A stretch of 64,000 nucleotides of DNA from Nocardioides immobilis (GTDB lineage: Bacteria; Actinomycetota; Actinomycetes; Propionibacteriales; Nocardioidaceae): positions 1 to 64,000 of the forward strand of contig NZ_QXGH01000038.1 in assembly GCF_003515065.1 (NCBI RefSeq). The letters are read 5' to 3'. The notes under the pieces were generated by a model. That model worked only from the letters and a program-made list of their open reading frames with translations, had not been told where the DNA came from and did no database searches. This document shows, in pieces, positions 7,384 to 59,265 of the stretch (positions are counted from its first letter, which is position 1; every line of letters starts with the position of its first letter). A program made the translations under genes and the position numbers.

Positions 7384-9954
7384 TCAGTCCGAGAGGGGGT
7401 CGTGGCCGTCCGCAGCGACGAAGCCGTAGGTCGTCGTCCGCTGGCGGACGGGTCGCCCGACGCCCGCCGCAACGTCGGTGAGCTCGCTGACCGTCTTGGC
7501 CGAGCCGTGCTCGGAGCCGGCCATCCGGGAGATGGTCTCCTCCATCAGCGTGCCGCCGACGTCGTTGGCACCCGCCCGGAGCATGGCTTGGGTGCCCTCG
7601 ACACCGAGCTTGACCCAAGAGGTCTGGATGTTGTCGATGCGCCCGTGCAGCATGATCCGGGCCATGGCATGGACGGCCAGGTTGTCGCGCAGAGTTGGGC
7701 CCGGACGGGCAACGCCAGCCAGATAGATCGGCGAGCTGGTGTGCACGAACGGCAGCGGTACGAACTCGGTGAAGCCGCCCGTCTCGTCCTGGAGCCGACC
7801 GATCACGCGCAGATGGCTGACCCAGTGGCGAGGATCGTCGACGTGGCCGTACATCATCGTGGAGCTCGACCGCAGGCCGACCTTGTGGGCGGTGCTGACG
7901 ACCTCGATCCACGTGGCAGTCGGCAGCTTGCCCTTGGTCAGGATCCAGCGCACCTCGTCGTCGAGGATCTCCGCGGCGGTGCCCGGGATCGTGTCGAGTC
8001 CGGCCTCGCGGGCCCGGATCAGGAAGTCCTCGAAGCTCAGGCCCGTGCGCGACGAGCCGTTCACGATCTCCATCGGCGAGAACGCGTGGACGTGCATCTC
8101 CGGCACGCGTTGTTTCACAGCCGCGGCGAGGTCGAAGTACGCCGTGCCGGGCAGCTCGGGGTCGATGCCGCCCTGCATGCAGACCTCGGTCGCGCCCAGC
8201 CCCCAGGCTTCCTCGGCGCGGTCGGCGACCTGCTCGAGTGAGAGCGAGTACGCGTCTGCATCGGTACGTCGCTGAGCGAACGCGCAGAACCGGCACCCGA
8301 CGTAGCAGACGTTGGTGAAGTTGATGTTGCGGTTGACGACGTACGTCACCTCGTCGCCGACCGTGTCGCGGCGCAGGTCGTCGGCCAGCCGCACCACCTC
8401 GCGCAGCAGGTCGCCCTCGGCCGTCATCAACGTCAGCGCGTGCTCGTCGGACAGGTTGCCGGGGTCCTTCTCGGCCGCGCGCAACGCGGATAGTCCCTGA
8501 CGATCCTGTCGTGAACCGGGCCGACCGACGACAGAATCGTCAGGGACTACCCCGATTTCGGCGGTCGAGCGCGCTGCCGCCTTCACCTCGTCCCAGTCGC
8601 CGTAAACCGTGGTGAAGTCGCTGCGGCGGTCCTCGGTGCGACCCTCGGTGTCGACGGCGGCATGCAGATCGGTCCTTCCAGCGGACTCGAAGCCGCCGTC
8701 GGGCTCCTGCCACGGATGGGGCTGCGGGCGGACGCCAGGCCGGGCCAAGCCGGAGTCGTCGGCGAGGGCGGCGACGTGAGCGGAGATGCGAGGGTCGAGC
8801 CAGGGCTCGCCCTGGACGACGTACTCCGGATGCACGGTCAGCCGTGGGCGCAGCTCGAAGCCGCAGGAGTCGGTGATCGAGCGCAGGCGCTCCAGGGAGG
8901 GCCAGGGCCGCTCGGGGTTCACGTGGTCCGGGGTGAGTGGGGAGACACCGCCCCAGTCGTCGACGCCCGCGGCGAGTAGGGCCGCGCACTCGTTGGGGTC
9001 GACCAGGTTCGGCGGCGCCTGAACCCTCATTCTCGGGCCCATCACAATCCGGGTGACCGCGATGGCTGCACGGTATTCGTCCAGGTCGAGGTCGTCGACG
9101 TGCCGCATCGCGGTGTCGGGCTTGGCTCGGAAGTTCTGGACGATCACCTCCTGCAGCGCGCCGTAGCGGCGGGCGTTGGCACGCAACGCGAAGATCGTCT
9201 CGGCCCGTTCGGCCAGGGTCTCGCCGATGCCGACCAGCAGGCCCGAGGTGAAGGGCACCGACAACCGGCCGGCGTCTTCGAGCACCCGGAGCCGGATCGC
9301 TGGATCCTTGTCCGGTGAGCCGTAGTGGGCCTCGCCCTTGCTCTCGAACAGCCGCCGCGATGTCGTCTCGAGCATCATGCCCATCGACGGCGAGACCGGC
9401 TTGAGCCGGTTGATCTCCTCCCACGACATCACCCCTGGATTGAGGTGCGGCAGCAGCCCGGTCTCCTCCAGGACCCGCACCGCCATCGCCCGCAGGTAGG
9501 CCAGCGTGGAGTCATAGCCCTGTTCGTCAAGCCACGCCCGCGCCTCCGGCCACCGGTCCTCAGGACGGTCGCCGAGGGTGAACAGCGCCTCCAGACAGCC
9601 CAGCTCCGCGCCCTGGCGGGCGATGTTGAGGATCTCGTCGGGAGAAAGGTACGGCGCCCGGCCCTCCCGAGCCCCATGGGCGGGAGTCTCCACAAACGTG
9701 CAGTAGTGGCACCGGTCCCGGCACAGCCGGGTCACCGGGATGAACACCTTCGGCGAGTACGTCACCACCCCTGGACGGCCGGCCGCCACTAGTCCCGCAT
9801 CACGGACGCGGGTCGCCACCGTGCACAGCCGGTCGAGCTCGGGGCCGGTCGCTGCCAGCAGTGCGGTGGCCTCGTTCTCATCGAGCGCGGCACCACGCTC
9901 AGCTCGAGCGAGCGCGCGGCGCACCTCGGCCGGCCTGACCCCAGTGGCTTCCAT
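7384..9954 (-). CDS. fbiC: 7,8-didemethyl-8-hydroxy-5-deazariboflavin (FO) synthase, bifunctional
   Basis: Fused CofG-CofH radical SAM enzyme, 856 residues, forming the F420 chromophore FO from tyrosine and the pyrimidine intermediate of riboflavin synthesis. Two CxxxCxxC iron-sulphur motifs are visible: CRDRCHYC (Cys78, 82, 85) in the CofG half, and CYVGCRFC (about 549-556) in the CofH half. Ordered CofH motifs include [12 protein letters not shown] and HAFSPMEI. The linker between halves carries a 59-base inverted-repeat element in frame (see 8491-8549). It is followed by cofC after one base and preceded by an LLM oxidoreductase with a 4-base gap, so it belongs to a catabolic-looking operon rather than standing alone. 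Confidence 0.96.
8491..8549. repeat. Intragenic inverted-repeat element inside the fbiC linker
   Basis: Left arm 8491-8512 begins TAGTCCCTGACGAT; right arm 8528-8549 ends ATCGTCAGGGACTA. The 22-base arms are complementary at 21 of 22 positions, around a 15-base loop (8513-8527). It is in frame with fbiC and encodes about residues 469-488, between the CofG and CofH halves. No second copy was noticed by eye in this window. It resembles small palindromic elements that insert into tolerant sites of proteins, but its identity as a mobile repeat is inference. Confidence 0.75.
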
Positions 9955-30790: not shown

Positions 30791-32008
30791 TCAGCTCAGT
30801 CGCTCGAGGACCATGGCCATGCCCATGCCGCCGCCGACACACATGGACTCCACGCCGAACTGCTTGTCGTGCCACTGCAGCGAGTTGATCAGCGTGGCGG
30901 TGATGCGGGCACCGGTCATTCCGAATGGGTGGCCGACGGCGATCGCGCCACCGTTGACGTTGAGCTTGTCCAGCGGAATGCCGAGCTGCTGCGCCGACCC
31001 GAGCGACTGCACCGCGAAGGCTTCGTTGATCTCGAAGAGGTCGATGTCCTCGATGCCCAGGCCCGCCTGCTTCAGCGCTGCAGGAATCGCCTCCACCGGC
31101 CCAAGCCCCATGACCTCCGGCGAGAGGCCGGTGACCGCGGTGGACACGATGCGCGCCAGCGGCTGCAGGCCGAGCTGCCTGGCACGGACGTCGGACATCA
31201 CCACGAGCGCGGCCGCACCGTCGTTCAGCGGACACGCGTTGCCGGCGGTGACGGTGCCGTCGCGGCGGAATACCGGCTTGAGACCGGCGAGCGCCTCGAG
31301 CGTGGTGCCGGGACGCGGGCCGTCGTCGGCAGCGACGACTGTGCCGTCGGGCAGGGTGACCGGAGTGATCTCGCGGACCCAGAAACCTTCCTCGATCCGC
31401 TGGACGGCGAGGTTCTGGCTGCGGACCGCGAACTCGTCCTGCTCCCGGCGACTCATTCCAAGGACCTGTGCGACGTTCTCAGCGGTCTGGCCCATCGCGA
31501 TGTAGAGGTCGGGCAGCTCGCCCGCCGTACTCGGGTCCACCCAGGTCTCGGCGCCGCCGCCCGCGCGCTTCTCGGTGCGCGCCTGCGCATCGGCGAAGGC
31601 CGGATTCTGCCCCTCGGGGTTGTCGGCGAACCCGTTGCCGAAGCGACTCACCGTCTCGACACCGGCCGAGATGTAGACGTCACCCTCGCCCGCCTTGATC
31701 GCGTGAAAGGCCATCCGTGTGGTCTGCAGGCTGCTCGAGCAGTACCGGTTGACCGTGACACCGGGCAGGTGGTCCATGCCCGCCAGTACCGCGACAGCAC
31801 GGCCGAGGTTGTTGCCGGACTCCCCCGCCGGCTGCCCCACGCCCAGGACCAGGTCGACCACGTCGGCCGGGTCGAGCCCGGGCACCTTGGCCAACGCCGC
31901 CCGGACCATCTGGACGGCGAGGTCGTCGGGACGCATGTCCTTCAGCGAGCCCTTGACGGCCCTGCCGATGGGCGAGCGGGCGGCAGAGACGATGACTGCT
32001 TCGGGCAT
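30791..32008 (-). CDS. Acetyl-CoA C-acyltransferase (thiolase), paralogue of the one at 617-1834
   Basis: Thiolase with 405 residues. Catalytic Cys is in VNRYCSSSLQTTRMAF, His in GGAIAVGHPFGMTGAR, and the C-terminal Cys in CVGGGMGMAM. ATG 32008 (MPEAVIVSAARSPIGR) is preferred over the longer frame. It is strikingly similar to the other thiolase of the window across its whole length, by eye around three quarters of positions equal, with the same number of residues. Being first of a leftward group with the broken SDR, FabG-like and MaoC genes, it may lead that operon. Confidence 0.93.
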   Translation of the reverse strand: MPEAVIVSAARSPIGRAVKGSLKDMRPDDLAVQMVRAALAKVPGLDPADVVDLVLGVGQPAGESGNNLGRAVAVLAGMDHLPGVTVNRYCSSSLQTTRMAFHAIKAGEGDVYISAGVETVSRFGNGFADNPEGQNPAFADAQARTEKRAGGGAETWVDPSTAGELPDLYIAMGQTAENVAQVLGMSRREQDEFAVRSQNLAVQRIEEGFWVREITPVTLPDGTVVAADDGPRPGTTLEALAGLKPVFRRDGTVTAGNACPLNDGAAALVVMSDVRARQLGLQPLARIVSTAVTGLSPEVMGLGPVEAIPAALKQAGLGIEDIDLFEINEAFAVQSLGSAQQLGIPLDKLNVNGGAIAVGHPFGMTGARITATLINSLQWHDKQFGVESMCVGGGMGMAMVLERLS

Positions 32009-36916: not shown

Positions 36917-36962
36917 GATCAAAGGGTGGGCATCCCCGTCGGGGATGCCCACCCTTTTGATC
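36917..36962. terminator. Strong bidirectional terminator between convergent genes
   Basis: A near-perfect hairpin: GATCAAAGGGTGGGCATCCC (plus C) pairs with the right half ending ACCCTTTTGATC around a GTC loop. One extra T breaks symmetry. A-run on one side and T-run on the other make it work in both directions, serving the reductase (stop 36890) and the convergent enoyl-CoA hydratase (stop 36967). Confidence 0.85.
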
Positions 36963-59226: not shown

Positions 59227-59265
59227 GCGGTGCTGGGTCGCGGAAGATGCGCGACCCAGCACCGC
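59227..59265 (-). promoter_or_regulatory. Intercistronic hairpin between binding-protein and permease genes
   Basis: Perfect 16-base arms, GCGGTGCTGGGTCGCG (59227-59242) and its complement (59250-59265), around a 7-base loop. It starts four bases beyond the binding-protein stop. No T-run. It likely protects the upstream transcript or partly terminates it, giving more binding protein than permease. Confidence 0.65.

Follow-up and report, generated by a model that had tools for sequence, protein, structure and literature searches.

The fbiC gene of Nocardioides immobilis, which encodes a bifunctional CofGH protein, contains within its reading frame a long and nearly perfect inverted repeat, raising the question of where such an element comes from and how it can sit inside a protein. 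The stretch of DNA analysed here, 64,000 nucleotides in length and referred to as the window, had been described in an earlier note as carrying a 59-base repeat with 22-base arms and 21 of 22 pairs at 8491-8549, for which it suggested either a small palindrome able to move into permissive linkers of proteins or a transcript hairpin that slows ribosomes between the two domains. Our analysis reproduced the coordinates, the arm length and the pairing: the arms lie at 8491-8512 and 8528-8549 on either side of a 15-nt loop, and the single mismatch becomes a G-U pair in RNA (Table 1). The placement between the domains was also borne out, because the CofG domain ends at residue 394 and the CofH domain begins at residue 502 in the NCBIfam matches, which puts the approximately 20 inserted residues (469-488) in the linker. 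As described below, this copy belongs to a scattered palindrome that a nuclease-like protein dedicated to it appears to disperse and to keep uniform, and which would then be a kind of genetic parasite.

Table 1. Features of the palindrome and of its host gene in the window.
Feature	Coordinates	Strand	Source
59-bp palindrome (22-bp arms, 15-bp loop; in-frame FbiC residues 469-488)	8491..8549	-	
Palindrome including extended ends (25-nt arms, 92% complementary)	8488..8552	.	
One-sided extension, loosely common to the 19 host copies, consensus approximately CGCTGACGGGCCGAAATCGCGA ahead of TAGTC	8550..8573	-	by eye
fbiC (bifunctional CofGH), gene hosting the insertion, 856 aa	7384..9954	-	
CofG domain, residues 65-394	8773..9762	-	TIGR03550 (NCBIfam)
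CofH domain, residues 502-844	7423..8451	-	TIGR03551 (NCBIfam)

The palindrome in fbiC and its copies in the host genome

Under the search rule used, the fbiC palindrome is the top hairpin of the window: it scores 19, while the best score in 20 first-order Markov simulations was 14; other real hairpins, with scores of 17 and 16, occur as well. Folding of the mRNA, one of the checks suggested at the outset, gave a strong hairpin (-48.6 kcal/mol, z = -8.6). The one-sided extension at 8550-8573 may be part of the element as well. Besides the fbiC palindrome, the window has two strong short hairpins with a terminator-like shape at 36921-36957 and 59227-59265 (loops of 3 and 7 nt), and two stretches of about 1.1 kb, 617-1747 and 30791-31921, offset by 30,174 bases, match each other at 75-83% identity over several blocks and are probably paralogous genes. 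No tRNA was found in the window.

A search of the whole host genome with the palindrome arm returned 38 occurrences (up to three mismatches), which make up 19 pairs, each spanning 59 bp, while the reversed pattern gave no copies. At this tolerance every arm belongs to a pair whose members are 37 bases apart, and there are no unpaired arms. Between 18 and 22 of the 22 arm positions are paired in the 19 copies and the loops vary, so that the family consists of dispersed doublets of inverted repeats with an unconserved spacer. Because 18 more copies are present in the genome, a chance origin of the fbiC palindrome, already judged very unlikely in the earlier note, is excluded.

Six of the 19 copies lie in frame within genes of five protein kinds, namely fbiC (two copies), cobN, pxpB (carboxyltransferase C/D), xdhC, and pcmt. 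The 59-bp unit together with one preceding base corresponds to 20 codons, and the in-frame copies begin at the second codon position. Two further copies bracket a single gene, which is the subject of the next section, and many of the other eleven are found at gene ends or between genes in a rough reading of the ORFs. The host carries four fbiC-like genes (on contigs C24, C1, C2, and C26), with identities to the window copy of 86, 83, and 70%, and the palindrome is present in just two of them, the one in the window and the one on C1. The 19 pairs and the in-frame copies in several kinds of protein support the earlier note's first proposal, a small palindrome that moves into tolerant linkers, movement being what this distribution suggests.

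Several other origins were considered and rejected. Collections of plasmids and phages contained no match to the palindrome, and four pattern matches on viral contigs do not read as this family. In the 6 loci searched, the sole Rfam matches on the palindromes were to mir-548, lay far below the gathering score of that family, and were taken as chance. Near the palindrome-carrying cobN gene, a Cobalamin riboswitch is located at L080:5534-5663 on the minus strand.

The gene bracketed by palindromes

The gene between two of the host palindromes is located at G000:C31:30843-31835 and has about 330 codons (365 from the first ATG of the host). Palindrome pairs about 1.2 kb apart are found not only in the host but also in the genomes G084, G076, G002, and G111 and in a MAG (L143); the gene inside the pair is homologous in all six, the frames are open, and the five homologues are 45-61% identical to the host protein. 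The gene occupies the host position in G111 and lies elsewhere in G084. Homologues at E ≤ 1e-15 are present in 183 of the 215 genomes of the genus, and we collected 100 family loci, 91 after deduplication, from two sets of 30 returned loci and 40 rows picked by hand from a list in which others were skipped. Hairpins sharing a common 9-mer flank the gene on both sides at 67 of these 91 loci; among the remaining 24, 18 have a hairpin on one side, one has two unlike hairpins, and five have none. The same test found bracketing at none of 29 fbiC loci, none of 30 other loci, and none of 200 intervals of the window. Outside the genus, 13 loci were inspected, and bracketing was present in five of the eight that come from two other genera of the host's taxonomic family and in none of the five from other families. 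At L383-L388, which belong to another genus of the host's taxonomic family, the gene is accompanied by palindromes with a different consensus, CGCTGAGTGTGACGTTT or similar, that lacks TAGTC.

The arms of the bracketing palindromes covary. In the 57 loci with a 59-bp palindrome of the form TA[CG]T...A[CG]TA, positions 1-11 are paired in 55-57 loci, and a single position can show as many as four kinds of Watson-Crick pair; since loci were admitted only when 14 of 20 positions paired, the paired share is partly built in, but this does not apply to the diversity of the pairs. Similarity between proteins also follows similarity between arms (Mantel r 0.376, with 0 of 2000 permutations as high). In addition, among the 73 genomes from which family genes were fetched, further copies of the palindrome were found in 19 of 19 genomes whose gene carries TAGTCCCTGAC palindromes, and any copies at all in 9 of 54 genomes whose fetched genes carry other palindromes or none. 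Five of these genomes (G141, G086, G229, G191, and G226, the last of them again) had been fetched for their many copies, and without the first four the counts become 17 of 17 and 7 of 52; both the Mantel test and the Fisher test ignore phylogeny. In G025 and G142 palindromes are present and the family gene is absent at E ≤ 1e-15, and therefore the palindromes can persist without the gene. G025 holds five palindromes, several of them degenerate, which may reflect decay following the loss of the partner.

If each member of the family drives its own palindrome, other members should have dispersed palindromes of their own, and this prediction held for a second paralogue in the host. The gene at C1:522237-523250 (L433) is bracketed by a palindrome unrelated to the first, and a search of the host genome with the arm of this second palindrome gave 43 occurrences, which form 20 pairs (one at each end of the gene and 18 in other places) and leave three single arms, with the reversed pattern absent. 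A reading-frame pattern, which proved too strict, matched one of the 20 loci of this second set. A third match in the host, at C1:209607-210521 (L454), has no long palindrome pair.

The host partner protein gave no match at E ≤ 1 in Pfam, NCBIfam, or PADLOC and nothing significant in PHROGs, and its only match among PDB sequences was at E 1.8. When six members were compared with Pfam, one member each pointed to REase_MTES_1575 (E 0.18) and DUF2726 (E 0.16), both non-significant, which we take to be families of the PD-(D/E)XK type. The G084 member was modelled with AlphaFold2 (pLDDT 87.8). In this model, residues 3-187 resemble AbiEi (6y8q; Z 8.9, rmsd 5.2 over 166 residues), and the structures similar to residues 190-295 include Vsr (1cw0; Z 8.4, rmsd 2.8 over 97 residues) and TnsA (Z 5.5); Z values near 8 are borderline according to the note of the tool itself, and unrelated ribosomal chains reach Z 8.6. 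Foldseek found no match between the model and PDB entries at E ≤ 0.001, and the best matches among viral models were Vsr and DUF559 proteins. From the model we infer an AbiEi-like N-terminal part followed by a Vsr-like PD-(D/E)XK nuclease domain, which would make the partner a putative nuclease. All 30 members compared have Asp229, His246, Glu188, Glu195, and Asp255, and at residue 240 there is Glu in 25 and Asp in five; judged by this conservation, Asp229, His246, and the acidic residues are candidates for catalysis. A Y1 transposase (RAYT) was rejected as the partner, as PF01797 had no matches in the host genome while the control was detected in 5 of 14 genomes.

Palindromes of related genomes and the sites they occupy

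With the outer arm fixed by the search pattern, exact palindromes were found in 45 of the 215 Nocardioides genomes, the host included, at 1 to 37 copies each, and in the same 215 genomes the reversed pattern was never found. A scan of GTDB genomes gave at least 102 matching stretches; among the matches listed, the titled ones that bear the palindrome are Nocardioides, and the other stretches look like chance, both by eye. G078, in the same genus, and N. alkalitolerans have one identical palindrome in common. In the copies listed the outer arm TAGTCCCTGAC is constant, as the pattern demands, and the inner arm is variable between species yet largely self-complementary. With regard to the unpaired GTAG tag that REPIN/RAYT repeats have at one end, many palindromes read GGTAGTC and others GATAGTC, letters that fall in the paired part. 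Several inner-arm types coexist in G111, and in a stricter search the host-type arm was absent from the other 57 genomes searched. In Nocardioides Root140, Soil797, and jensenii, at L101, L106, L130, L141, L148, L171, and other loci, left arms are repeated in tandem ahead of a run of right arms, and the loop is shorter (a 48-bp unit).

The linker of FbiC could be read in 39 genes, two of them from the host, four further loci being unreadable by the rule used, and an intact 59-bp palindrome of the family is present in four (both host copies, G111, and G084) and not in the other 35. The pairing in G111 extends to 18 of 22 positions, and by eye two of the 35 linkers without an intact palindrome (L203 and L221) resemble degenerate remnants. 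The earlier note had set against a mobile repeat the case in which all relatives have the same residues and the arms occur nowhere else, and this is not what we found. Of the 18 relatives aligned for XdhC, three (G084, G111, and G125) carry a palindrome-like insert where the host does, one carries an insert of another kind, and 14 lack any. For PCMT, the host-like site is occupied in both of the aligned relatives, G025 and G084. Among the compared FbiC and XdhC/PCMT loci there was no closely matched empty site, and the exact insertion boundary and any target-site duplication cannot be fixed because the linkers vary too much.

The fbiC linkers of other Nocardioides (L208, L217, L218, L205, L220, L235, and L236) contain, by eye, unrelated in-frame palindrome-like inserts, such as CCGAGCCTGTCGAGG...CCTCGACAGGCTCGG in L208, and the FbiC linker looks like an insertion hotspot. 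At the cobN loci L255, L268, and L269 we observed peptides like GLDTPPPSGSGGSTSG and ETGASAPSSTT, similar forms of which occur in the FbiC linkers of congeners; the resemblance suggests that the same other palindrome families occur in CobN and in the FbiC linkers.

We then compared insertion sites, using the element loci of the host as the only database. Ten of the 13 dispersed copies in G084 have as neighbours the genes found next to a host copy, although for one of the ten the match is limited to a single side, and three do not, and all five copies found by the pattern in G025 are at host sites. At these common sites the arms are unlike, being GAAAAGCACC in G084 and of the CTGTCG type in the host. 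The similarity of the loops between G084 and host sites is 0.49, against 0.43 for unrelated pairs (10 sites), values with which replacement and saturation are indistinguishable, and between G025 and host sites it is 0.61 against 0.39 (5 sites). Most of the compared insertion sites are thus common between species while the inner arms differ genome-wide, and therefore the palindromes have either been inserted again at the same spots or been rewritten in concert where they reside.

Such common locations would also be expected if the palindromes were not mobile at all but served as binding sites, with the protein acting as a host factor (in nucleoid organisation, in regulation, or as a defence mark) at about 20 fixed places in the genome that co-evolve with its specificity. 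The uniformity of the arms within a genome fits this explanation too: G084 has 15 palindromes, in which 28 of the 30 arms are identical over 18 letters and the other two differ by one base each, and their loops are dissimilar. We nevertheless regard binding sites as an unlikely explanation, because a set of fixed sites is at odds with the wide range of copy number among the 45 carriers and with the 170 genomes that have none by the exact pattern. It is also at odds with the presence in one genome of two unrelated palindrome sets for two paralogues and with the three G084 sites that have no match among the host element loci, and the middle of cobN, pxpB, xdhC, or pcmt would be an odd place for a housekeeping site.

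A MITE-like derivative of a DNA transposon, with the gene merely captured between two copies and the transposase encoded elsewhere, seems far less probable. The inverted-repeat ends do carry TA at both termini (TAG...CTA), and some TA-targeting insertion sequences have ends of this kind. However, chance capture is unlike the recurrent bracketing of one gene family by palindromes that are specific to each locus, and transposon ends would appear as distant single arms, whereas all host arms are paired at a fixed distance. The bracketed gene lies between two whole palindromes and has no transposase match, and the host genome lacks a Y1 transposase, the one type covered by the transposase search. 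The least probable explanation, that a transcript hairpin acting as a bidirectional terminator or a ribosome-pausing device was multiplied for its usefulness at gene ends, has in its favour the strong RNA fold and the several host copies near ORF ends, but it leaves unexplained the mid-frame copies, the species-specific inner arms, and the bracketed gene family. By eye, none of the 19 host copies has a T run directly after the hairpin. Slowing of ribosomes may still occur on the mRNA, but it would not account for the copies outside genes.

A proposed mechanism and its relation to known systems

We therefore favour, with a probability of about 0.72, the reading that the fbiC palindrome is a non-autonomous copy of a dispersed family that depends on the dedicated protein encoded at C31:30843-31835. 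In this mechanism, the AbiEi-like N-terminal part would bind DNA by recognising both inverted arms, and the nuclease domain would cut or nick at the palindromes. Repair might then place further palindromes where they do little harm, as at the ends of genes, in the gaps between them, and in protein linkers, or, alternatively, rewrite resident palindromes to the current arm sequence. Hairpin-templated correction is one form that a repair step can take. If one arm were copied and the hairpin then templated its own second arm, the arms would spread and the loop would not, which matches the observation that arms are alike and loops differ. The fbiC copy would survive because the 60-nt span has an open frame and sits in a linker. 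Going further, and only tentatively, we consider that the palindromes might constitute a self-rewriting drive, in which a shift in the specificity of the nuclease would be followed by conversion of the arms of all resident palindromes with no exchange of loops, so that sites would be inherited for long periods while the recognition sequence is replaced in concert.

The closest parallel is the REPIN/RAYT system. As described in the passages of the cited papers drawn on here, hairpin-forming inverted repeats are dispersed in the genome in several sets, each with a single-copy partner gene beside the same repeats (PMC3116915, PMC3733652), and in this 'REPtron' the repeats and the partner are thought to co-evolve (PMC3116915, PMC3733652, PMC8266576). 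The palindromes of Nocardioides share with that system, as far as those passages describe it, the dispersed inverted-repeat doublets, the several sets, and the partner gene flanked by its own repeats. They differ in the partner, which is predicted to be AbiEi-like and Vsr-like and is not a Y1 HuH enzyme, and in the inner arms, which differ genome-wide at common sites. They also differ in location: REPs are mainly extragenic in these accounts, though PMC3733652 reports intragenic ones, whereas about a third of the host copies (6 of 19) are in frame within genes. In the latter respect they are like the Rickettsia palindromic elements (RPE), which according to the part of PMC10969869 consulted are inserted in frame in unrelated genes and translated as an extra peptide. 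However, RPEs are about 150 bp long, in contrast to 59 bp here, and the same part of that paper names no partner enzyme for them (PMC10969869); CGTC-tagged repeats, including some RPEs, seem to be without a dedicated transposase in the cited passage of PMC3733652.

The protein itself has likenesses elsewhere. Vsr, DUF559 proteins, and phage homing endonucleases are among the best fold matches of the predicted C-terminal domain, but the partner has no significant sequence match in the libraries searched and has in addition the AbiEi-like part and the bracketing palindromes. The predicted fold of the N-terminal part resembles that of the AbiEi antitoxin of the AbiE toxin-antitoxin system, from which the partner differs by its fusion to a nuclease-like domain. 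Among the top-ranked papers under open licences, preprints excluded, we found no palindromes paired with an AbiEi/Vsr-like protein. We assign the system to neither REPIN/RAYT nor RPE, and it is placed outside the former because the defining Y1 enzyme is absent. In our reading it is a mobile system that works like REPIN/RAYT but with a partner of unrelated kind, a presumed nuclease that would account for a presumed movement.

Bacterial genomes commonly contain short dispersed palindromes, and to our knowledge many families of them have no known enzyme. Through bracketing, co-variation, and a prediction that held, the protein family described here is tied to such palindromes as a second type of partner, apparently unrelated to the first. 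Because it has members across Nocardioides, and palindrome-bracketed ones in two more genera of the host's taxonomic family, it provides numerous natural combinations of a protein with its recognition sequence. If the protein cuts its own palindrome, these combinations would represent a large set of nucleases that recognise long DNA sites, and the same activity would explain why palindromes are found in frame in enzymes of the F420, B12, and other pathways.
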